DNA of 64,000 nucleotides from positions 248,001-312,000 of the forward strand of contig NZ_JAKFUM010000003.1 of the NCBI RefSeq assembly GCF_021732705.1, given 5' to 3'. Positions 51,391-61,592 of the stretch are shown here, piece by piece. This DNA comes from Nevskia sp. (GTDB taxonomy: Bacteria; Pseudomonadota; Gammaproteobacteria; Nevskiales; Nevskiaceae). The translations under genes were made by a program, and so were the position numbers. Positions within the stretch are counted from its first letter, which is position 1; the number at the start of each line of letters is the position of its first letter. The notes under the pieces were generated by a model. The model was not told the DNA's origin, ran no database searches, and saw nothing but the letters and a program-made list of their open reading frames with translations.

Positions 51391-53409
51391 TCAGCTCGCC
51401 TTGGGACGCCGATGCCGCGGGCTGGACGCGCCGCGCTTGCCTGCCGCGGCGTCTTCGATCGGCTGCGTGCCCTTGCAGTCCGGATAGCGGCTGCAAGACC
51501 AAAACGCGCCGCTCTTGCCGCTGCGCTGGCGCATCGGGGCGCCGCATTGCGGGCAGCTCGGTGCAGGCGGCAGCTTGAGATCGAGTGTGGCGCTGCGGTA
51601 CTGCTGCACGAGCTGGGCGACCCAGCTCGATTGCTTGGCGATGAAGGTGTCCAGCGTCATCTGACCGGCCTCGATCATGTCCAGCGCCTGCTCCCACACC
51701 GCCGTCGTGCCCGGATCGGCGATGGCCGCCGGCACCGCGTCGATCAGCGTGAATGCCGCATCCGACGCGCGGATGGCACGGCCCTTCTTCAAGAGATAAC
51801 CGCGGGCCAGCAACCCGCTGATGATGTTGGCACGTGTGGCCTCGGTGCCGATGCCCGTGGTGTCCTTGAGCTTCTGCTTCAGGCGCGGGTCGGTCACTAG
51901 CTTGGCGACGCCTTTCATGGCTTTGACCAGTTCGCCTTGCGTGTAGGGCTTGGGCGGCAGCGTCTTCAACGCCTTCAGTTCGACCTGGCCGACCTGGCAG
52001 GAGGCCCCGGCGCGCAACGCCGGCAGCACCTGGCCGCGCTGCGCGTCCTCGCCGTCCGTGTCGTCGGGCTCCGGCGCCGCCAGCACCTGGCGCCATCCGG
52101 CCACCGCGATCTGCTTGCCGACCGCGACCAGCGACTGCCCGCCGCACGTAAGCTGCGCCACCGTCCGGTCGAACTCGTGATGCGGCAGGAACTGCGCGAG
52201 GTAGTGCGCGCGGACCAATCGGTAGACGGCCAGCTCCTTGTCGCTCATCGCCGAGAGGTTGGCCGGTTCCAGCGTCGGAATGATGCCGTGGTGCGCCGTG
52301 ATCTTGCCGTCGTTCCAGGCCCGCGAACGCTGTTGGCGATCCAGGCGGTCGATCAGCGGTCGCAGGCTGGGATCGGTCTTGACCAGGCTGTCGAGGACGG
52401 CCGGCACATCTGCCAGCATGCTCTCGGGCAGGTAGCCTGAATCCGAGCGCGGATACGTGGTCGCCTTGTGCGTCTCGTACAGCGCCTGGGCAATGTCCAG
52501 CGTTTCCTGCACGTCGAGGCCCAACTGCTTGGAGCACACCTCCTGCAAGGTGCCGAGGTCGAACGGCAGCGGCGGGCCTTCGCGCACGCGCTCGGTCTCC
52601 ACCGACAGCACCTGGGCGGCGCCGGCCGCGCGCAGTTGTGCGGTTGCCTGCTGCGCCACCGGCTGCTGCAGGCAGCGGCCGGCGTCGTCGGCGCTGCCCT
52701 GCGGCGGCATCCAGCTTGCGACGAAGGACTGGCCCGCATGCGAAAGCGCGACCTCGATGGCCCAGAACGGCACCGAGACGAAGCGTGCGATCTCGCGATC
52801 ACGGTCCACGACCAGCTTGAGCGTGGGCGTCTGCACACGCCCGACCGACAGCACGCCGTTGTAGCCGGCCTGGCGCCCGAGCAACGTGAACAGGCGGCTT
52901 AGGTTCATCCCGATCAGCCAGTCGGCACGCGATCGGGCGAGCGCGGAGAAGTACAGCGGCAGCGTCTCGACGGACGGCTTGAGCGCCGCCAGGGCCTTGC
53001 GGATCGACGCATCGTTGAGCGCGGACAGCCACAACCGCTGGATTGGGCCGCGGTAGCCGCACAGCTCGATGATTTCGCGGGCGATCATCTCGCCTTCGCG
53101 GTCGGCGTCAGTCGCGATCACCAGCTCGCCCGCCTTGGCGACGAGCTGCTGCACGACCTTGAACTGCGCCGCGGTCGCCGCCTTGGGTTCGACACGCCAG
53201 CGCTCGGGAAGAATGGGCAGTTGCTCGATGGCCCAGCGCTTGTACTGCTCGCCATAGCCTTCGGGCGCAACCGCTTCGACCAGATGACCGATGCACCAGG
53301 TCACGACGACACCCGCACCGCTGTAGCAGCCGTTGCCGCGTTGGCCCGCGCCCAGTACACGGGCGATGTCCTTGCCCTGGGACGGCTTCTCGCACAGGAA
53401 CACGCGCAT
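51391..53409 (-). CDS. topB: DNA topoisomerase III
   Basis: The 672-aa type IA topoisomerase has an N-terminal Toprim domain (LVIATDADREGEMIAREI near residue 95). The catalytic Tyr is in THKATTYPRSDSGYL near 318. A C-terminal zinc finger (CPQCGAPM with CSRYPDC) and a basic tail complete it. It relaxes or decatenates DNA and is a core part of this ICE family next to ssb. ATG 53409 follows AAGGAGG. A 17-bp palindrome lies 212 nt upstream. Confidence 0.94.
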   Translation of the reverse strand: MRVFLCEKPSQGKDIARVLGAGQRGNGCYSGAGVVVTWCIGHLVEAVAPEGYGEQYKRWAIEQLPILPERWRVEPKAATAAQFKVVQQLVAKAGELVIATDADREGEMIAREIIELCGYRGPIQRLWLSALNDASIRKALAALKPSVETLPLYFSALARSRADWLIGMNLSRLFTLLGRQAGYNGVLSVGRVQTPTLKLVVDRDREIARFVSVPFWAIEVALSHAGQSFVASWMPPQGSADDAGRCLQQPVAQQATAQLRAAGAAQVLSVETERVREGPPLPFDLGTLQEVCSKQLGLDVQETLDIAQALYETHKATTYPRSDSGYLPESMLADVPAVLDSLVKTDPSLRPLIDRLDRQQRSRAWNDGKITAHHGIIPTLEPANLSAMSDKELAVYRLVRAHYLAQFLPHHEFDRTVAQLTCGGQSLVAVGKQIAVAGWRQVLAAPEPDDTDGEDAQRGQVLPALRAGASCQVGQVELKALKTLPPKPYTQGELVKAMKGVAKLVTDPRLKQKLKDTTGIGTEATRANIISGLLARGYLLKKGRAIRASDAAFTLIDAVPAAIADPGTTAVWEQALDMIEAGQMTLDTFIAKQSSWVAQLVQQYRSATLDLKLPPAPSCPQCGAPMRQRSGKSGAFWSCSRYPDCKGTQPIEDAAAGKRGASSPRHRRPKAS

Positions 53410-53620
53410 GAAGCCTCCTTGGAAGTGTGCGGTTCATCGGATGGCCCCCAGCTTGGCCGGGCCAGCGGATGACGGCAGCAAGGAAGCCGATCGGCATAGA
53501 CACCGCTTTGTGAACGGCGGGCGATGCGTTGCCGCAGCAGGTACGACCTGACCGCAAAGGCTGGCGCAGCGGGAGCGTCGTTTCGGGAGGGCGGCTGGAA
53601 CTCGGTGGAACACCCTGGCG

Positions 53621-53637
53621 CTATCCCCTGGGGATAG
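53621..53637. promoter_or_regulatory. 17-bp palindrome, copy 1
   Basis: CTATCCCCTGGGGATAG has 8-bp perfect arms around one central base. It lies in the 280-bp gap between topB and ssb, upstream of topB. Two identical copies lie at 55580 and 56943. It is likely a binding site for an ICE regulator or for ParB. Confidence 0.65.
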
Positions 53638-53689
53638 CTGGTGCATGGCGGGCGTCTGACGGTTGCTACAGCCGCCCCCTGCGGGGGAA

Positions 53690-54139
53690 TCAGCCCTTGG
53701 CCTTGGTTTCCTTCGGCGCCTTCGTCCCCTTGGTTTCCTTCGGCGGCGGTACTGCCGCCTCGGGTTCCAGCGTCCTGGCGCTGAGGGTCACAGCCTGGAG
53801 GCGGTACGGCAGAATGCCAATGCGCCGGGCCTCGATCTTGAAGGTGGTGCGCTCGTTGTCGTCGGCGTCTTCCCACTCGTCCTTCACGGTGCGGCCTTCC
53901 ACCAGCACCCGCATGCCCTTCTGGTACAGCGTCTGCCAGTGGTCGGCGTCGCGGTGCCACAGCTCCACGGGTGCCCAGAACCCGCCGCGGTCCTCGTACT
54001 CGCCGTCCTTCTTCGGGATCGGGTTGTCGAAGTAGACGTTCAGGCGCAGTAGCCGGCGCGGCTCGTCGTTGCCGTTGGGGAATTCGCGATAGTCCGGCGC
54101 GGAACCGATGTTGCCCTCGCCGACGAAGTGCGTGCTCAT
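53690..54139 (-). CDS. ssb: Single-stranded DNA-binding protein
   Basis: The 149-aa protein has an OB-fold pattern: MSTHFVGEGNIGSAPDYREFPNG, LLRLNVYFDNPIP, GFWAPVELWHRDADHWQTLYQKGMRVLVEGR, TFKIEARRIGILP. Instead of the usual acidic tail ending DDDIPF, it ends in a KETKGTKAPKETKAKG repeat of Lys and Thr. This basic repeat tail is odd for SSB and would not be expected to recruit host partners in the normal way. It overlaps the DUF3158 gene by 4 nt. Confidence 0.85.
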   Translation of the reverse strand: MSTHFVGEGNIGSAPDYREFPNGNDEPRRLLRLNVYFDNPIPKKDGEYEDRGGFWAPVELWHRDADHWQTLYQKGMRVLVEGRTVKDEWEDADDNERTTFKIEARRIGILPYRLQAVTLSARTLEPEAAVPPPKETKGTKAPKETKAKG

Positions 54140-54687
54140 GGTGACTCCTTGGGGGTGGTGGATGGAACGGACGCGGCATGCCCGTGGACACGCCGCAGGT
54201 AAGCCGCTTCGGCCTGCGCGGCCTTGCTGGCGCACTCCTGGGCCTGGCGGCCCAGCGTGTGAAGGAGGCTGATCTGCATGTTCAGCGCGATGCGCTGCAA
54301 CTCCATCGCGTACAGGTCATCGATCAGCGAGGCCGGCGTTGCCGGGCGGTCGAGCAGCGACTCCCACAGCGCCACGCCCATCGAGGAACGATCGTGGTTG
54401 CGCCAGCGCAGGAAGGTCGTGCCTGCGCCAGTGGTCTGCTGGGCCAGTTGCACATCGAGCAGCGAGAAGGGATAGGCCCGCGCCTGTTGCAGCACACGCC
54501 GCTGCGCCAAGCCGATCACGTCATCGCGCAGCGCCGTGCACTGGCTGGCCCAGGCCTCCAGACTCCCCTTACCCTTAAAAGGCTGTAAAAGGCCTTTTAG
54601 GTAGCCCGCGTGTTCCAGGCGCTGGAAGTCCGCCTGTTCCAGCGGCAGGAAGCGCGCCGGTTGGCCGGTCGAAGGCGATGCCGTCAT
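54136..54687 (-). CDS. DUF3158 family protein
   Basis: The 183-aa protein has the family start FLPLEQADFQRLEHAGYLKGLLQPFKGKG and a helical body (LIDDLYAMELQRIALNMQISLLHTLGRQAQ). It belongs to the TIGR03761-DUF3158-ssb-topB block conserved in these ICEs and overlaps both neighbours by 4 nt. The KGLLQPFKGKG codons contain a palindromic AAAAGGC repeat, listed separately. Function unknown. Confidence 0.86.
   Translation of the reverse strand: MTASPSTGQPARFLPLEQADFQRLEHAGYLKGLLQPFKGKGSLEAWASQCTALRDDVIGLAQRRVLQQARAYPFSLLDVQLAQQTTGAGTTFLRWRNHDRSSMGVALWESLLDRPATPASLIDDLYAMELQRIALNMQISLLHTLGRQAQECASKAAQAEAAYLRRVHGHAASVPSTTPKESP
54575..54601. repeat. AAAAGGC repeat with AAAAGGCCTTTT palindrome inside DUF3158 gene
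   Basis: AAAAGGC occurs twice in tandem, and the second copy forms the perfect 12-bp palindrome AAAAGGCCTTTT at 54587-54598. The same AAAAGGCC word is found in the repeat region upstream of the relaxase. A second transfer or replication site is one possible meaning; codon choice alone is another. Confidence 0.45.
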
Positions 54688-55457
54688 GCCTTGGCGCCTT
54701 CGCCGTCCAGATCGTCGTCCGCCACGTCGGCTGCGCCAGCGACGGGCGCGGCCTCAGCGGTTGCACCAGGCTTGCCCGCCCGCCGCGCGATCGGTGGCGC
54801 AAAGCGCGAGCGGCGCGTGCCTTCGAGCACGTCCTGCGGCAGCTCGCCGAACTTCTCCAGCGCTGCCCGCGCCACCGCGTTCTTCGAGGCGAAGTCGTCG
54901 CGAGTCGCGCCGGCGTAGCGGTACTGCTGTGCCAGGGAGAACAGGCTGCGCAGCGCGTGCGCGCCGTCGTTGAGCCAGCGTTCCAACGTGCCGCGGTCGA
55001 TTAGCGCAGTGTGGTGGGCGAGGATCAGCTTGCGTGCCAGGTCGTCGTAGTCGGCCAGCAGGTACACCGCCATGAAGCCGAGCTGCGCATTGACGAACAG
55101 CGGCAGCTTCACGGGCTGCACGTTCATGTTTTCGCCCAGCGACAGTGCGGGTGGCACGTCGGCCAGCGCCTGGTCCACCTGCTCGCGCAGCGCCTGCAAG
55201 CTCGCCTTGGTCTGCGTCAGCTTGTCCTCGATGCGCAGCATCCACCAGTCCGAGTAAGGATCGTCCTGTTCGGCCCCGCGCTTCATCTTGTTCATCACGC
55301 TGATGTAGCCGTTGAGGCCGATGATCCCGGGCCGGCCCTCAGCGGGCGCTCGGCCATGCCAGATGCGTGAAGCGTGGTGGGTGTGCAGCGTCAGTGACAT
55401 CGCGCTGCGCAGCGATCCGAGATTCAATTGCAGGGGCTGCTGGGATTCGTTGGACAT
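54684..55457 (-). CDS. ICE protein, TIGR03761 (PFL_4669) family
   Basis: The 257-aa protein contains the family blocks LTLHTHHASRIWHGRAPAEGRPGIIGLNGYISVMNKMKRGAEQDDPYSDWWMLRIE (read in parts) and LILAHHTALIDRGTLERWL, with a C-terminal Ala/Asp-rich tail. It is a cytoplasmic core protein of unknown function, first gene of the TIGR03761-DUF3158-ssb unit. A 17-bp palindrome lies 123 nt upstream of its start and may control the unit. Confidence 0.86.
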   Translation of the reverse strand: MSNESQQPLQLNLGSLRSAMSLTLHTHHASRIWHGRAPAEGRPGIIGLNGYISVMNKMKRGAEQDDPYSDWWMLRIEDKLTQTKASLQALREQVDQALADVPPALSLGENMNVQPVKLPLFVNAQLGFMAVYLLADYDDLARKLILAHHTALIDRGTLERWLNDGAHALRSLFSLAQQYRYAGATRDDFASKNAVARAALEKFGELPQDVLEGTRRSRFAPPIARRAGKPGATAEAAPVAGAADVADDDLDGEGAKA

Positions 55458-55579
55458 GGTGACGACTCGCGGTAAGGGAACGAGTCGCCAGCATCGGCAT
55501 CGCCCGGAAGGGCGTCAGTCAACAAACCGCAACCGCGCCGCTCCTGGTTTTCCAGTCGCTGGAAGGTGATCTGTGTCTG

Positions 55580-55596
55580 CTATCCCCTGGGGATAG
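55580..55596. promoter_or_regulatory. 17-bp palindrome, copy 2
   Basis: CTATCCCCTGGGGATAG lies between the divergent TIGR03761 and phospholipase D-family genes. It is 123 nt from the former's start and 100 nt from the latter's, a good place for an operator of both. Confidence 0.65.
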
Positions 55597-55695
55597 ATGC
55601 CTGGCAGGAGAGGACCGAGCCTGCAGGCAGACCTGGACAATGGCCATTGGTTGCCCCTGGTTTGGGGCTGCCGCACGCAAGAAGGGGGTCAAACG

Positions 55696-56910
55696 ATGAA
55701 GGATGAGACCGCCGTTCAACTGCTGGTGAACGAGGAACGCGGGCACGGCGACAAGCTCGTGAAACTGCTGAAGCAGGCGGAGCGCCTGGAATGCTTGGTG
55801 GCCTTTGCGAAGGCATCGGCCCTGAACGGGCTGCTGAAGTCACTGCGCAAGGCGCTTGAGCGCGGACTGGAAGCCCGATTTGCAATCGGCCTCGACTTCT
55901 ATCTGACCGAGCCCGTCGTGCTCCGAAAGCTGCTGGAGCTGACCAAAGAACACGCGCTCAAGCTGTACCTCAGTGATTCCAGCGAGACATTCCATCCGAA
56001 GATCTACGCCTTTCAGCACAGCAAGGGATGCTCGGTGATCGTCGGATCGGCCAATTTCACACAAGGAGGCCTCTACGCCAACTATGAGGCATCAGCCTTG
56101 GTCGAGGGCACGAGCGACACGCTGATGGCCTCGGTCACTCAGCATTTCGACGCTCTGATCGATGACGAAATCATCGTCCCGGCGACCAGGGACCGCATTG
56201 ACGCCTATGAACGGGAGTACGTCATCCACGACATCTTCCGAAAGGTGGCCAAGAAGCGTGCGCAGAAGGCAAGCAGCGCGATTGGCCCGAACTTCACGAC
56301 GTTGGCCGGCATTCTGGAGTTGATGAAAAGCGACGATTCAGAACATGGCTTCACGGAACAGAAAGCCCTACGAAAGGGCAACCTTCGCCAGGCAAGGCGG
56401 ATGTTGGAGGAATGGGCCGTCGCGCGTGGGAATACGAGTCAAGGGTTCCTGGCCCGATTTGAAACGTTGATCGGCCTGCTGCATTCGGGTGGCTTGCATC
56501 GCGGCAAGAACCGAATCGCGGAGCATCCAGGTCAGTTCGTCGCAGCGGTAAGAGACATCGTGGGCCAAGGCACTCTCCCACCTGGAGACGCCTTCGCAGT
56601 TCTTCATGCGCACTTCGAGCACATCCCGCGAGCAGGCATCAACCTACTGACCGAGGTGCTGCACGCACTTGACAACAAGCGGTTCGCGGTGATGAACCAA
56701 AACGCGGTGTCGGGGCTGGCATTGGCCGGGATCAGGGCATATCCCCTACATCCAAACAAGCAAAACGTCGGTCCCGACGACTACGCAAGGTATTGCCAGC
56801 ATGCCGAGGAGGTGCGACAGGCGCTGGGCCTGGCCGACTTCACGGAATTGGATGCACTGTTCAACTACGCCTATTGGGGTGAATCCTCGGGAGAGGTGGA
56901 AGCAGATTGA
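55696..56910 (+). CDS. Phospholipase D-family (HKD) protein, cargo gene
   Basis: The 404-aa protein has one PLD motif: FHPKIYAF followed by VIVGSANFTQGGLYANYEASALV near residues 100-135, with His, Lys, Asn and Glu in the right places. N-terminal residues 10-70 look like the RGLEARFAIG domain seen in nuclease members. The C-terminal 250 residues are of unknown fold. It could be a nuclease in restriction or phage defence; a lipase is less likely without a signal peptide. It is the only plus-strand gene in a long minus-strand region and is bracketed by two identical palindromes. Confidence 0.75.
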   Translation: MKDETAVQLLVNEERGHGDKLVKLLKQAERLECLVAFAKASALNGLLKSLRKALERGLEARFAIGLDFYLTEPVVLRKLLELTKEHALKLYLSDSSETFHPKIYAFQHSKGCSVIVGSANFTQGGLYANYEASALVEGTSDTLMASVTQHFDALIDDEIIVPATRDRIDAYEREYVIHDIFRKVAKKRAQKASSAIGPNFTTLAGILELMKSDDSEHGFTEQKALRKGNLRQARRMLEEWAVARGNTSQGFLARFETLIGLLHSGGLHRGKNRIAEHPGQFVAAVRDIVGQGTLPPGDAFAVLHAHFEHIPRAGINLLTEVLHALDNKRFAVMNQNAVSGLALAGIRAYPLHPNKQNVGPDDYARYCQHAEEVRQALGLADFTELDALFNYAYWGESSGEVEAD

Positions 56911-56942
56911 CGGGACGGACTTGCGGAAGAGGGGCTGTCCCA

Positions 56943-56959
56943 ACTATCCCCTGGGGATA
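56943..56959. promoter_or_regulatory. 17-bp palindrome, copy 3
   Basis: A third identical CTATCCCCTGGGGATAG lies 33 nt after the phospholipase D-family stop and 11 nt past the STY4528 stop. Without the cargo gene, copies 2 and 3 would occupy the same intergenic place. Confidence 0.6.
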
Positions 56960-56969
56960 GCCCAGACGG

Positions 56970-58196
56970 TCAAGGGCGGCGGAGGTTGGATCGAATCTGT
57001 GCCAGGTAGGCGCGCGCCACCTCGGGATCGGCGGGACGGGACTCGGCAGCAGGTGTGGCGTGTGCCGGCGCAGGTGTTCGAGCGACTTGTGGCGCTGCGC
57101 CGTTGTCACCTGCCCAGGCCTTGAACTCCCCGCGGATCGCCTTCTGGATGATGCCGAACAGATAGCCGGCCGGGTTGCGCACCGCGCTGTTGCGGCAACG
57201 CGCATCCCATTCGTCCAGCACCGCCTGCCGAAGGGGCTCGTCCACCTGCTGCAAAGCCACGAGCGCGCCGCTCTGCTGCTCGTCCTTCAATCGCAGCAGA
57301 CGCTCGGGCAGGCGCAAGTGCTGCAGCGCTTTCGCGCGCGGTACTGTACGTACTTGATTTATACGATCCATACGTACAGTACGGTCCTCCTTCGGATTCC
57401 GAAGTGAGCCGTCTGGCGCGGGCTTCGGCCCTGCTTCGGAATCCGAAGACGGGCCATCGAGATTCCGAAGTAGGCCGCCCTGGCCTTCTTCGGAATCGTG
57501 ATCCACAGGCTCTTGTGGACAACTCGCATCGGCCCATTCGTTGCGTGCCATGCGCTGTGCCAGCACCTGCAAGCGCGTGGGCAGCGTGCGGCCATTGAGC
57601 ATCGGGTCTTCGGCGATCTCGCGCAGGGTGTTCGCGCCGACGATCTGCACCGCCTTCGCGGCATGGGTCAGCGCTTGGCTGACCAGGCCGAGGTAGTCGG
57701 GGTCGAGCTGCATCGCCTCGAAGGGCGTCAGCGGTTCGTCGTGCAGCACGTAGAGATTTCCCAGGATGCGCCCGGTCTTCGGGTCGCGGCGTCGTCGCAC
57801 CAGGCTCAGCGAGCGCGTCAGCCGCAGCAGCGTCAGGGCGCGAGCCACGGTCTCGTGCGAGGCCTGCGCCGCACAAGGCATCGACGCGAGATAGGGCCGG
57901 AGCTGGTCGTAGGTCGGGAACGCCGTCACACCGTCGCTCTGGAGCTGCAGGCGGAACACCTGCCAGGCATTGCGCTCCAGTGGCGTCAGGCGCCGGTCGA
58001 GGAACAGCGCGCGCGGCACGCTCTCATGCCGGTTGCCGCTGTAGAGAAAGCCGTCGCTGACCGGCGCGGCCGGCGACGTAGGGGCGTTGCCGCGTGCAGC
58101 CGGCGGTGCGGGTGGCACCAGTTCCCGCAGCGCATCGTCGAACAGCGCCGACAGCGCCACAGGGCCATCGCGCCGGGGTGCGCCGCCGGTCGCCAT
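56970..58196 (-). CDS. STY4528 family ICE protein, candidate BisC by position
   Basis: The 408-aa protein has a conserved N-terminal half (FLDRRLTPLERNAWQVFRLQLQSDGVTAFPTYDQLRPYL, and SHETVARALTLLRLTRSLSLVRR, a winged-helix-like region). A low-complexity linker at about 233-285 is packed with DNA palindromes. A C-terminal block has AGYLFGIIQKAIRGEFKAW. It is annotated in relatives as a pathogenicity-island replication protein. By gene order it matches bisC of ICEclc, a subunit of the transfer-competence activator; that link is inference. Confidence 0.8.
   Translation of the reverse strand: MATGGAPRRDGPVALSALFDDALRELVPPAPPAARGNAPTSPAAPVSDGFLYSGNRHESVPRALFLDRRLTPLERNAWQVFRLQLQSDGVTAFPTYDQLRPYLASMPCAAQASHETVARALTLLRLTRSLSLVRRRRDPKTGRILGNLYVLHDEPLTPFEAMQLDPDYLGLVSQALTHAAKAVQIVGANTLREIAEDPMLNGRTLPTRLQVLAQRMARNEWADASCPQEPVDHDSEEGQGGLLRNLDGPSSDSEAGPKPAPDGSLRNPKEDRTVRMDRINQVRTVPRAKALQHLRLPERLLRLKDEQQSGALVALQQVDEPLRQAVLDEWDARCRNSAVRNPAGYLFGIIQKAIRGEFKAWAGDNGAAPQVARTPAPAHATPAAESRPADPEVARAYLAQIRSNLRRP
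57341..57497. repeat. Cluster of inverted repeats inside the STY4528 gene
   Basis: GTACTGTACGTA at 57341-57352 is exactly complementary to 57371-57382. Four perfect copies of GATTCCGAAG in alternating orientation follow at 57395, 57434, 57461 and 57488. Such dense symmetry inside a coding region suggests a DNA site such as an origin, iteron or partition site. Confidence 0.65.
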
Positions 58197-58199
58197 GGC

Positions 58200-58760
58200 C
58201 TATACCAGCCCCTGGTCGATCCAGTTGCGTATCGCCGACCAGATCACCGACATCGGCAGGCTCAGGGTCTCGGCCAGGTCCATGGTCAGCGCCAGCATCG
58301 CCATCTCGTCGTCCAGCGCGATGCCGCGCTCCGTGACGCCAGCCTTCCACTGCTTCCATAGCGCCGTGTCCTGCGCCTCGTCCAGCACCGGATGGCGCCC
58401 CTTGCGCTTGGGCAGGCCGAGGATGTCGCGGCGCAGGGCCACCTCCTGATGCGTCAGGCCGTAGAAGCGGCTGACCATCTCCGTGCTGGCTCCCAGGCGC
58501 AGCATGCGGTCGACCGTCGCGATCTCGCGCTCCACATCATGCACCTGGCTCAGCAATCGCTTGAGCACTTCGCGATTGACCGACACCGAGCACCACGAGA
58601 CAGTGGCGTTGACCAGCATGCTCACGAGTTCGGGATGCTTCAGCGCATCGAGTTCTTCCTCGCCGAAGCCCATCGCTTTGCAGCGTCGTAGTTGCCCGTT
58701 GCGCAGGTCGTGCAGCGCCTGCGCGATTACGGCCTGGTTGAGCGGGTGCGGTGCCGACAT
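58200..58760 (-). CDS. DUF2857 family protein, candidate BisD by position
   Basis: The 186-aa protein matches DUF2857 by VSWCSVSVNREVLKRLLSQVHDVEREIATVDRMLRLGASTEMVSRFYGLTHQEVALRRDILGL (a helix-turn-helix-like part, read in blocks). It ends with ALTMDLAETLSLPMSVIWSAIRNWIDQG. In ICEclc the gene in this place is bisD, partner of bisC in a FlhDC-like activator. It starts 13 nt after parB and is 3 nt from STY4528, so the genes form one operon. Confidence 0.8.
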   Translation of the reverse strand: MSAPHPLNQAVIAQALHDLRNGQLRRCKAMGFGEEELDALKHPELVSMLVNATVSWCSVSVNREVLKRLLSQVHDVEREIATVDRMLRLGASTEMVSRFYGLTHQEVALRRDILGLPKRKGRHPVLDEAQDTALWKQWKAGVTERGIALDDEMAMLALTMDLAETLSLPMSVIWSAIRNWIDQGLV

Positions 58761-58773
58761 GGCCGATCTCCGC

Positions 58774-60453
58774 TCAGGCGCCGTGGCCGGAAGCGCTGGC
58801 GCCCGCGCCGGCTTCCAGATCCAGAAGCCGACGCGCCAGGCGCAGCAGCCGGAACAGTTTGACCAGCCCGGCATCGCTCAGGCGAGGGTAGGCGCCGCCG
58901 CCATACAGCAAGGGCGCCAGATCATCGGCGAGCCGGGCGCGATCGAGTCCGGCTGCGGCACGTGCGGCGCACAGCGCCTGCAGCAGCGTCAGCACCGCCC
59001 GCGCAAACGGCGGCATCGCGCGCGCAGCTGGCGGCGTCACGCAGGCGAAGCCGATGCCGGCGTCGCTAGGCTCGACCTGTTCGGCCACGCTGGCTTCCTC
59101 GGCGATCTCGCGCGCGAACTGCGCGATGTGCACGCGCAGCCGATCCGGTACGTCCAGGCCCGGCTCGATGTACCAGACGTCCGAGATGGGGTAGAGCCCG
59201 CCCGCCTGGACGGGAATCGCGCGCAACGCGTCAGCCTCGAAGTCGGGCAGCTTGTCGCCCATCTGGTCGGCGACCATGCGCTGGATGGATTGCAGGCGTT
59301 CGGTGGTCGGCGCCGGCGACACGATGTGGCCCTGCAGGCGCTCGTCGTGCTGCTCGTTCTGCTGCGTGCCTTCGGCGCCAACGGCCAGTGCTGCCTTGCC
59401 AGTACCTGCCGGCACGGACGCACGAGGCTCCGACGACTGCACTGAAGGACCAGCCGGCGACGAAGCCGATGAAGGTTGCCGCAGCTCGGGGGCAGGTGCG
59501 GTCGGCGCCGCAGGTCGTGCTGCCGCTGGCGGCGCCGGATCGCTGGTCAGCGCACGTTGCCGGCTCTCCGTGTCGTCGATCTCCAGGGCCAGCGTGTCGT
59601 AGTCCGCTTCCAGCAGCTCGGCCATCTGGCCTACCAGCTCGTCCTGCACGCGCTGGGGTGAGAAGTCGTCCGGCTGCGTGTCGAACTGCGCGAGCACGTC
59701 CTGGAACAGCGCGGCGAAGTCCATCGACAGGCTGCGGCCCAGCGCACGCCGCTCCCAGGTGCGCTCGCAGGCCTTGCGCAGCACCGCGAGCCGCTCGACC
59801 TGGTGCCGCCCCAGCCCGCCGTACAACAGGTTCGGGATCGCCGGCAGCAGGTAGTGCACCGCGTCCTGCATGCGGCTGATGTGCGACTGCGGCAGCGGGA
59901 AGCCATCGGCCGTGAGCCGCCGCGCCAGCTCGCTCTGCGACAGTGGCTGGCCGCTGTCCCGCCCCATCTCCTGCTCGTAGAACTCGCGTGCCTTCTCCAC
60001 GCCCAAGGCCCGCTCGATGAAACTCAAGCCCCCGCGCAGCTCGTTCTCGGCCAGGTGGCCGGTGAGCATCACCACCTCGCCGCGCTGCGGCCAAGGGCGG
60101 AACAGGCAGGAGATGCGGAAGAAGCGTTCGTCCTTCGTCTCGCTCCACAGCTCGCGCAGGATAGCCAGGCGCGTGTTGCCGCCGTTGCGGATGATGTAGT
60201 GCGGCTCGCCGGGCCGGCGCGTGATGGCAGGCGGCGCGTCCAGCCCGCGCTCGCGGATCGACGCCTTGATGTCCTCGTAGGCTGGGTTGCGCGTCACGCG
60301 CGGGTCATGGTCATAGGAGCGTAACTGGTCCAGCGTTACGACCATCGGCGTGTCGGCGATGGGGTCGGTCAGGGCCGCGGCAGAAGGGCCGCTGCGCTCG
60401 AAGCCCGAGGCCAGCAGCTTGGCGGCCATGTCGTCCGGCGTCATGTCAGCCAT
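58774..60453 (-). CDS. parB: ParB family partition protein of the ICE
   Basis: The 559-aa protein has a ParB/Srx nuclease-like N-terminal domain (VVTLDQLRSYDHDPRVTRN, then HYIIRNGGNTRLAILREL). A helix-turn-helix region follows (LSQSELARRLTADGFPLPQSHISRMQDAV near 195-225), then a long Ala/Pro-rich linker and a C-terminal helical domain. It is the PFGI-1-class ParB and should bind centromere-like sites, possibly the palindromes in this window. It overlaps the short gene upstream by 8 nt. Confidence 0.88.
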   Translation of the reverse strand: MADMTPDDMAAKLLASGFERSGPSAAALTDPIADTPMVVTLDQLRSYDHDPRVTRNPAYEDIKASIRERGLDAPPAITRRPGEPHYIIRNGGNTRLAILRELWSETKDERFFRISCLFRPWPQRGEVVMLTGHLAENELRGGLSFIERALGVEKAREFYEQEMGRDSGQPLSQSELARRLTADGFPLPQSHISRMQDAVHYLLPAIPNLLYGGLGRHQVERLAVLRKACERTWERRALGRSLSMDFAALFQDVLAQFDTQPDDFSPQRVQDELVGQMAELLEADYDTLALEIDDTESRQRALTSDPAPPAAARPAAPTAPAPELRQPSSASSPAGPSVQSSEPRASVPAGTGKAALAVGAEGTQQNEQHDERLQGHIVSPAPTTERLQSIQRMVADQMGDKLPDFEADALRAIPVQAGGLYPISDVWYIEPGLDVPDRLRVHIAQFAREIAEEASVAEQVEPSDAGIGFACVTPPAARAMPPFARAVLTLLQALCAARAAAGLDRARLADDLAPLLYGGGAYPRLSDAGLVKLFRLLRLARRLLDLEAGAGASASGHGA

Positions 60454-60754
60454 GGCCGTTCTCCTGCGGCGATGCCTCGGCAGCCTGCGCCTGGCGGTCG
60501 GCGCGGCGAAGCTGCGCACGGGCATTGCGCTCGGCGCGGTGGTCGCTCGCCATCGAGCTGGTGTAGATCGGCGCGCAGCCCGGCTTCGTGAACAACAGGT
60601 GCCCGCCACGGGTGCGCACCACCTTCCATCCTTCGCTCAGGGCAAACTCGATCAGCACTCGCAGCCGCTTGTGGCCGCGGGCCAGTTCATGCTCGCTGGC
60701 CACGGCCGACGCCTCCTGTGCTGCCTCGGCCGGTGACGAGCGCGAAGCGCTCAT
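60446..60754 (-). CDS. Short protein between parA and parB (Shi-like), HicA-like fold
   Basis: The 102-aa protein holds KRLRVLIEFALSEGWKVVRTRGGHLLFTKPGCAPIY, which resembles the double-stranded-RNA-binding-like fold of HicA toxins (Gly-Gly-His region). It has no HicB partner. In ICEclc a short gene called shi lies in this place. It overlaps the parA 3' end by 68 nt if ATG 60754 is used; a GTG at 60700 would shorten the overlap to 14 nt. Confidence 0.68.
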   Translation of the reverse strand: MSASRSSPAEAAQEASAVASEHELARGHKRLRVLIEFALSEGWKVVRTRGGHLLFTKPGCAPIYTSSMASDHRAERNARAQLRRADRQAQAAEASPQENGHG

Positions 60755-61553
60755 GCCACGCCGGAAACAGCTCGCCGGCCAGCGCGCGCATGGTGTCCAG
60801 CGCCGCGGGGGCGGAGCGGCCCGCCGGCTGGCGGTACTCCACCCGATGCACCGGCAGGCCCTGCGTGGCAGCGCGCGGATAGGCCTCGATAGCCGGCACG
60901 TCGGTGTCGAGCACACGCACGCCGGACTGTCCCTGGAACACCTGCCGCAGCGCCTGCTGGATCAGCCGCGCGTTGGATGACACCGAATGCACGCGGTTGA
61001 TGAGCAGATGCAGCGGCGGTGGCTCAATGCCGAGGTGCCGGTACGGCGCGATGTCCTCGATGAGCTGCAAGGTGCCGCGGCGCAGCTCGCGTGCCGCGAG
61101 GATTTCCGGCGTCACCGGCGACAGTGCCAGATCCGAGGCCAGTACCGCCATTTCGAGCAACACGCTGCGCGCGCCCTGGGTGTCGATCAGCAGCAGGTCG
61201 TAGCGCGGCGCGAGCGTGGGCACCAGGTGACGCAGTCGCAGTCTGCCGTCCGGCGCATGCAGCAGCAGCGTGTTCAATTCGCCGCGGTCGTCGTTCGACA
61301 GCACCAGGTCCAGCCCGGCGATGGCGGTGTGCGACACCAGTTGCTCGGCGCGCTGCTCGTTGTAGGCCAGCATCTCGTAGATGCCGGCCGGCGCACGTTC
61401 GGTCAGCGTGAAGTAGCTCGACAGCGTGGGCTGCACGTCCAGGTCCAGCAGCAGCACGCGCAGCCCGGAGTCGGCCGCGAAGCCGCCCAGGTTGGCCGCC
61501 GTCGTGGTCTTGCCCACGCCGCCCTTGGTCGAAATGATCGAAACCACCTGCAT
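60687..61553 (-). CDS. parA: ParA family partition ATPase
   Basis: The 288-aa protein has the deviant Walker A KGGVGKTTTAANL at residues 10-22, Walker A' VLLLDLDVQPTLSSY and Walker B DLLLIDTQGA. It is a Soj-like ATPase that works with ParB to keep excised, replicating ICE copies in the cell. ATG 61553 begins MQVVSIISTKGG; a start eight codons earlier is possible. It follows alpA by 39 nt. Confidence 0.92.
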   Translation of the reverse strand: MQVVSIISTKGGVGKTTTAANLGGFAADSGLRVLLLDLDVQPTLSSYFTLTERAPAGIYEMLAYNEQRAEQLVSHTAIAGLDLVLSNDDRGELNTLLLHAPDGRLRLRHLVPTLAPRYDLLLIDTQGARSVLLEMAVLASDLALSPVTPEILAARELRRGTLQLIEDIAPYRHLGIEPPPLHLLINRVHSVSSNARLIQQALRQVFQGQSGVRVLDTDVPAIEAYPRAATQGLPVHRVEYRQPAGRSAPAALDTMRALAGELFPAWHERFALVTGRGSTGGVGRGQRA

Positions 61554-61592
61554 GGGCTTCTCCCGGTTGATTGGCATGTGCCGGAAGAAGCG

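Follow-up and report, generated by a model that had tools for sequence, protein, structure and literature searches.

The closest described system is that of the integrative and conjugative element (ICE) ICEclc, in which the gene once called parB now bears the name bisD and orf97571, of the DUF2857 family, is bisC; the pair activates the promoters Pint and PinR, with BisD required together with BisC (PMC7423338). Nine bimodal ICEclc promoters have been described, eight of which (alpA, inrR, orf88400, orf81655, orf67231, orf58432, traI and intB13) have a common 27-bp motif, bisR being the exception (PMC9286271), and BisD bound to cytidine triphosphate (CTP) forms a clamp that slides from bisS boxes and coactivates promoters with BisC (PMC13393423), the boxes being credited by citing papers to Antar et al. 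2025 (doi 10.1093/nar/gkaf802; cited in PMC13393423, PMC13098234, PMC12704722). Here we analyse a 64-kb stretch of Nevskia sp. DNA (64,000 nucleotides of contig NZ_JAKFUM010000003.1, hereafter the window) that carries an element of the ICEclc family and, within it, three copies of the 17-bp palindrome CTATCCCCTGGGGATAG. Our comparison of relatives suggests that these 17-mers are very probably where the ParB-like BisD encoded by the element binds DNA, that is, its bisS boxes, and we take them as ParB sites because the letters of the site track the DNA-reading region of BisD across 64 lineages. An earlier note on this DNA had proposed a protein-binding site, either parS-like or for an activator; the first proposal is backed by the comparison among relatives, and the second holds in substance but not as a choice between two, since by analogy with ICEclc the ParB is BisD, the D half of BisDC, and the two candidates are one protein.

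Like the sites in the window, bisS of ICEclc goes with the same protein family and the same regulatory module, and ICEclc too has several boxes; we equate the two by protein family and module, not by letters or positions. The element in the window encodes homologues of both BisD and BisC, a TIGR03764 ParB and a DUF2857 protein, whose genes adjoin the sites. The site type itself is already known as bisS, and what is added here are its lineage-specific forms, its arrays and the residue code; we found no literature on lineage-specific bisS letters or on a BisD code, part of which the original bisS paper may hold.

parS is an even palindrome of 16 bp. Chromosomal ParB-parS and Noc-NBS resemble the BisD system in that a palindrome is read by a helix-turn-helix, with residues 173, 179, 184 and 201 setting specificity and guanine bonded by R173 and adenine by Q173 (PMC7383237). 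When the recognition helices are aligned by hand, BisD 189 matches ParB/Noc 173, where R likewise goes with G and Q with A, and BisD 217 is spaced as residue 201 (28 residues); however, the ParB and Noc sites are chromosomal, whereas those in the window are odd 17-bp sites that vary by ICE lineage. Other ParB-like proteins also regulate transcription, namely KorB of RK2, a clamp with long-range control that silences (PMC11790492), and VirB, a clamp that acts from virS to counter H-NS silencing (PMC10770331), while BisD instead coactivates with BisC. In IncC plasmids, and with mimics in SGI1, the element's ParB binds scattered inverted repeats (parS), some of which are near boxes of the activator AcaCD; these repeats, however, are 22 bp long and have a different core, a plasmid usually carries 12-14 of them, and the ParB is separate from AcaCD (PMC10954446).

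Position and distribution of the palindrome

Each of the three copies is perfect, an 8-bp inverted repeat about a single central base (8-1-8). Two lie where the earlier note had placed them, at 53621 and 55580, and the third starts at 56944 and not at 56943. At up to three mismatches chance would give a mean of 0.03 matches per 64 kb; the window has six two-strand matches, a number reached in none of 100 shuffles. No copy beyond these three was found at up to two mismatches in the whole genome (28 contigs, 4,531,486 bases, 4.53 Mb), so that the frequent copies at random chromosomal places that the note had named as counting against its proposal were not seen, and all three cluster at one module, around the TIGR03761-ssb-topB block. 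As the note had said of coding sequence, no assigned gene overlaps any copy, and the overlaps that exist are with short unassigned open reading frames (ORFs). Copies 2 and 3 bracket a cargo gene with a PLD domain, and the last base of the 55580 copy sits one base ahead of the first ATG of its frame.

With the central base left free and one mismatch allowed, the pattern was present in 5 of 100 relatives' genomes (own genome counted), and public genome contigs scanned for CTATCCCCNGGGGATAG gave at least 118 stretches. Among the matches listed, to which the counts that follow in this and the next paragraph refer, 115 of 118 have module proteins near the palindrome (tblastn, at least one of nine window proteins), and these loci hold 227 sites, the carriers being mostly Beta- and Gammaproteobacteria. 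Upstream of topB lie 73 of the sites, and for 63 of these the distance to the topB start is 200-215 bp. Sites upstream of TIGR03761 occur in 72 loci (two copies in 49, one in 18 and three in 5), the nearest copy being 100-130 bp away in 67 of 72; start codons in these distance counts were approximated from BLAST, and 23 sites were left unclassified. The search of related ICEs that the earlier note had suggested returns recurrent distances upstream of both starts. The central base is variable (A 141, T 77, G 6, C 3), and neighbouring sites are spaced 80-168 bp apart in 40 of 59 pairs and 895-1632 bp in the other 19, where the longest intervening ORF is 170-437 amino acids (aa), not every one of these ORFs necessarily being a gene.

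What fills the wide gaps differs among relatives, a family of about 286 aa being present in 11 of the 19 filled loci. In 77 of the 227 sites (L012-L129, loci that are related) the arms pair for at least three bases beyond the 8 bp, and the letters of these extensions differ (e.g. GAG/CTC, GAA/TTC, GCG/CGC). The three stretches with a palindrome and no tblastn match to module proteins (L097, L105 and L125, from Pseudanabaena, Sulfitobacter and Desulfobulbus records) perhaps owe their exact copies to chance.

More distant relatives were drawn blind to the palindrome, as genomes carrying the TIGR03761 family, which is found in 30 of the 369 genomes drawn from the class and 11 of the 398 drawn from the phylum (own genome in both); two further families yielded 44 of 198 and 22 of 198 genomes. 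Only 2 of the 30 class-draw loci, the window being one, have the 17-mer, and many of the remaining ones show a different odd palindrome at the equivalent place. For comparison we took 96 regions, a subset of the matches that includes four selected for carrying the 17-mer, and called their genes by iterated profiles. Of 91 loci, 59 have an odd palindrome, its arms 8 bp or longer, in the 1300 bp upstream of TIGR03761, against 2.95 expected from shuffles, a count that leaves out the four selected loci, the window and a second palindrome class inside STY4528; with this class and the selected loci kept in, it is 65 of 96 against 2.75. In several relatives the palindromes form regular arrays: 13 in L243 at steps of 76-77 bp (ten of them TGTAAACA), 11 in L259 at steps of 36 bp except one of 72, ten in L238 at 39-bp spacing, nine in L239 at steps of 39 or 117 bp, five in L191 at 37 bp and four in L248 at 51 bp. 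Half-sites include CTATCCCC, CTATACCC, CTATGCGG, TGATGCCA, TGATTCCC, TGTTGCCA, TGCTGGCA and TGGCCACA besides TGTAAACA. Build and neighbourhood are kept while the letters depend on the lineage, as expected for a site recognised by a dimeric DNA-binding protein that the element itself encodes.

We also considered insulation, in which co-resident ICEs would avoid a common site. Co-resident modules have differing sites in five of the seven genomes with at least two site-bearing modules in our set (G830, G984, G877, G998 and G965) and an identical or near-identical site type in G415 and G882; by our own estimate site types are so numerous that five of seven is no excess over expectation, and we therefore do not claim insulation.

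Co-variation of the sites with BisD

Half-sites were compared pairwise with the alignment columns of BisD, BisC, STY4528 and TIGR03761, with correction for overall divergence, in 51 non-redundant lineages, which are what is left of the 64 lineages with all four proteins once near-duplicates are removed; the 64 themselves served for the table of residues against bases and the tree test, and five of them (L202-L205 and the window) had been selected for the 17-mer. Five loci with ambiguous palindromes (L187, L192, L198, L199 and L200) were removed beforehand, the half-site of L225 was set to CTATCCCC by eye, and the reference was the highest value that any of the 1,181 columns reached when the labels were permuted 300 times. 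BisD 174 follows base 2 (r 0.92, permutation maximum 0.33), BisD 217 base 8 (0.82 against 0.31) and BisD 189 base 3 (0.71 against 0.43). At residue 174, R goes with G2 in 34 lineages and S, A or Q with T2 in 29, with one gap and no exception among 63. Q189 accompanies A3 in 40 lineages, and R189 with G3, N189 with C3 and Y189 with T3 occur in three each. H217 has C8 in 29 of 29, D217 has G8 in 2 of 2 and P217 has A8 in 29 of 30, while at residue 194 K or Q goes with T5 in 10 of 10 and R with another base in 50 of 50, W being mixed (3) and one lineage having a gap.

Because free permutation is blind to relatedness, we added a test on a tree built from TIGR03761, STY4528 and BisC with BisD left out, in which branches with a joint change of column and base were counted over 19,856 column-by-base tests (proteins that 60% or more of the lineages have); as ties in parsimony were resolved arbitrarily, the values are rankings, not exact probabilities. 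The three highest ranks all fall to BisD: residue 217 with base 8 (6 of 6 base changes, 5.7e-9), 174 with base 2 (4 of 4, 5.0e-7) and 194 with base 5 (5 of 10, 6.0e-6). Taken together, the co-variation favours BisD over BisC, STY4528 and TIGR03761 as the reader of the site, and the comparison of ICEs suggests which of its amino acids read which letters.

Several results weigh against this reading. BisD 193 reaches 0.67 with base 4, which equals the permutation maximum of 0.67 and is not clearly above chance; for base 1 the top columns are BisD 446, 50 and 174 (0.77, 0.75 and 0.74; permutation maximum 0.41), the first two of which fall outside the helix-turn-helix; in the pairwise test base 5 has its top column in BisC (0.40, permutation maximum 0.25), and the best columns for bases 6 and 7, in STY4528, are within the permutation range. 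The residue table is not clean either: Q189 is found once with T3, H189 is mixed (T3 in 6, G3 in 3, C3 in 1), A189, L189 and P189 each stand once with T3, residue 189 has one gap, the exception at P217 is L239 with C8, and R217 goes once with C8 and T217 once with A8, with one gap. In the tree test columns of topB, BisC and STY4528 come next, at 1.3e-5 to 1e-4. The structure model of BisD is poor (mean predicted local distance difference test score, pLDDT, 54.9 from 35 sequences), and, in the held-out set described below, all ten loci with five or fewer residue matches gave no or weak support.

The held-out set comprised 19 loci with an aligned BisD row whose palindrome had not been accepted earlier, L264 being without residues at the code columns. 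Where at least six of seven code residues match a training lineage (8 loci), the predicted half-site ranks first of the 25 known ones in seven (L201, L215, L216, L227, L241, L247 and L261) and second in L236, where the top one differs by a single base; this test is only partly independent, some of the eight being closely related to training lineages. Two pairs of sister elements approximate a mutation experiment. Between the BisD proteins of L248 and L249, 34 columns differ over 636 aligned positions, all of them from residue 181 on and five inside 165-235, including Q189H and Q191H; all four sites of L248 have A3, whereas five of the seven of L249 have T3. For L240 and L241 the BisD differences number 84 over 583 aligned positions, 23 of them in 165-235 and including Q189H and H217P, and the sites change from TGATTCCC to halves TGGTTCCA and TGTTTCCA.

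The mechanism that we propose takes letters, placement, conservation and co-variation of the sites from this analysis, and clamp, sliding and co-activation from the ICEclc literature. A BisD dimer would read both 8-bp half-sites through its helix-turn-helix region, with residue 174 going with base 2, 189 with base 3, 194 with base 5 and 217 with base 8, and, more weakly, 193 with base 4. By analogy with ICEclc, BisD would load at the 17-mers, close into a CTP-dependent clamp, slide along the ICE and, together with BisC, turn on transfer promoters that have no 17-mer; the sites may additionally serve partition via ParA. Such clamp loading fits the window in that the sites are few and all in the block after bisDC, and the target promoters of ICEclc have another motif.

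On a wider scale we think it fairly probable that in the ICEclc superfamily one ParB clamp has diversified into at least 25 site specificities through a switchable code of about five BisD residues, clamp and site co-evolving as an identity tag. If so, the loading-site letters of an ICE would be predictable from its BisD, and a handful of residues could switch them. Reading the 17-mers as BisD sites links a repeat in an environmental ICE that had lacked an explanation to the recently described activation of genes at a distance by a sliding ParB clamp, with natural variants as the experiment, near-identical proteins with differing palindromes in sister elements indicating the DNA-reading residues. 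The comparison yields a testable recognition code, a loading-site finder for unannotated ICEs and candidate orthogonal pairs of clamp and site as laboratory tools.

Other explanations for the sites

That the sites are chiefly a partition centromere, at which ParA and BisD would segregate the excised and replicating ICE with regulation secondary, is in our view unlikely. In its favour, BisD is a ParB, the ParA gene adjoins, and the regular 36-77 bp arrays of relatives resemble plasmid centromeres such as sopC of the F plasmid, where a ParB binds short inverted repeats that are regularly spaced. Once excised, ICEclc goes through a transient phase of replication (PMC6561031), which also fits partition, but its BisD is needed with BisC for activation and slides from bisS (PMC7423338, PMC13393423), and ParA with Shi affects the host without ParB (PMC6812849). 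Partition and clamp roles are mutually compatible, and partition may accompany clamp loading. We give far less credence to direct promoter operators of the BisDC complex. One copy does precede the TIGR03761 start by about 120 bp, fronting the TIGR03761-DUF3158-ssb block, whose front would by gene order be the PinR region; against this, three copies genome-wide (at up to two mismatches) compare, by description, with eight ICEclc promoters that carry the 27-bp motif (PMC9286271). Since those eight share another motif and the 17-mer is confined to the TIGR03761-ssb-topB block, the 17-mers are probably not BisDC promoter boxes; of the earlier note's activator sites, what stands is the BisD half of BisDC, and the STY4528 protein that it had also listed for binding tests lies outside BisDC.

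Binding by the TIGR03761 (AcaB-family) protein, which would autoregulate its own operon and topB, would explain sites upstream of both genes and suit the Pfam name of the family, transcriptional regulator AcaB, and its column 58 follows base 8 at 0.70. We nevertheless rate it as highly improbable, its best column in the tree test reaching 1.2e-4 (8 co-changes in 21 column changes) against 5.7e-9 to 6e-6 for BisD. Iterons of the STY4528 replication protein are to us just as improbable: the 17-mer lies just past that gene and the arrays of relatives likewise, but a sequence-conserved palindrome within the gene is the better candidate and STY4528 columns rank below BisD in the tree test. Least credible of all is that the 17-mers mark recombination borders around the cargo gene, or act as RNA hairpins or terminators. 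The PLD gene does sit between copies 2 and 3, and 19 of the 59 site pairs have ORF-sized gaps, as borders would; the 40 close pairs, the extra copy at topB and the variable central base do not suit them, and co-variation with BisD would be left unexplained by borders and hairpins alike. As to terminators and RNA, five terminator-like sites were predicted in 53400-57600, none on a 17-mer, and no Rfam family fell on the 17-mers; both readings were rejected.

Genes of the module and a second palindrome

BisD, the proposed binder, and the other features of the module are collected in the table, the BisD start codon within its ORF being our choice. The DUF3158 gene would by gene order be the counterpart of ICEclc inrR. 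The PLD cargo gene shows restriction-enzyme-like matches besides DrmC-like ones and is a possible defence nuclease.

Table. Features of the module, with positions in the window.
Feature	Position	Strand	Basis or remark
bisS-like palindrome, topB copy	53621-53637	.	exact 17-mer; intergenic ssb/topB, upstream of topB
bisS-like palindrome, TIGR03761 copy	55580-55596	.	exact 17-mer; 122 bp upstream of TIGR03761 start
bisS-like palindrome, STY4528 copy	56944-56960	.	exact 17-mer; between PLD gene and STY4528 end, just past STY4528 stop
BisD, TIGR03764 ParB-family, 559 aa, proposed binder	58774-60453	-	NCBIfam TIGR03764, E 5.7e-118 on the longer ORF 58774-60609
BisD residues 165-235, helix-turn-helix region	59749-59961	-	co-varying residues 174, 189, 193, 194, 217
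BisC, DUF2857	58200-58760	-	ORF 58200-58874, putative start; Pfam DUF2857, E 1.9e-63
ParA-like ATPase	60687-61577	-	Pfam AAA_31, E 1.9e-25
STY4528 family pathogenicity-island replication protein	56970-58196	-	NF040582, E 4e-118
TIGR03761 / AcaB-family protein	54684-55457	-	family library matches
DUF3158 protein	54136-54687	-	Pfam DUF3158, E 4.4e-89
Single-strand DNA-binding protein, ssb	53690-54139	-	family library matches
Topoisomerase gene topB	51391-53409	-	name from the earlier note; ORF and tblastn relatives
Cargo gene, PLD nuclease domain	55597-56910	+	PLDc_2, E 1.4e-11; DrmC, E 9.3e-13 (PADLOC); between copies 2 and 3

The weak BisD model predicts, at low confidence, helices at 173-182, 189-205 and 216-237. 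Against the PDB it matched nothing meaningful (best E 2.2); among solved-structure sequences BisD has a weak match to KorB (E 0.12), and the best match of its profile there is unrelated (E 1.5). The STY4528 model has a mean pLDDT of 48.8 (43 sequences), and neither STY4528 nor TIGR03761 has a match among solved-structure sequences.

Between the palindrome and TIGR03761, at 55514-55526 on the minus strand, lies TTTGTTGACTGAC, which is conserved in the relatives examined and is a possible promoter element. As a promoter motif shared within the window it was rejected: four matches at up to three mismatches compare with 6.33 expected, and at up to two mismatches no second copy was found in the window, the exact sequence occurring at its own position only.

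Within the STY4528 gene a second palindrome, TTCGGA-W-TCCGAA, stands at 57391-57403 and 57435-57447, 44 bp apart. In relatives 61 of 82 STY4528 genes carry two to six copies (up to one mismatch) at 47-68% of the gene, most commonly spaced 44, 45, 54 or 33 bp, with two copies in total outside STY4528 in these loci. In 53 of the 61 genes the copies occupy two or three reading frames, so that the DNA rather than the protein is apparently conserved, and the array is a plausible candidate for a replication origin inside the STY4528 gene, much as the origin of phage lambda is located inside its replication gene O. Beside these palindromes, at 57341-57385 and 57495-57525, the DNA is AT-richer with inverted arms GTACTGTACGTA ... 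TACGTACAGTAC, seen by eye, and nearby stands TTGTGGACAA, also spotted by eye, which we take to be DnaA-box-like.

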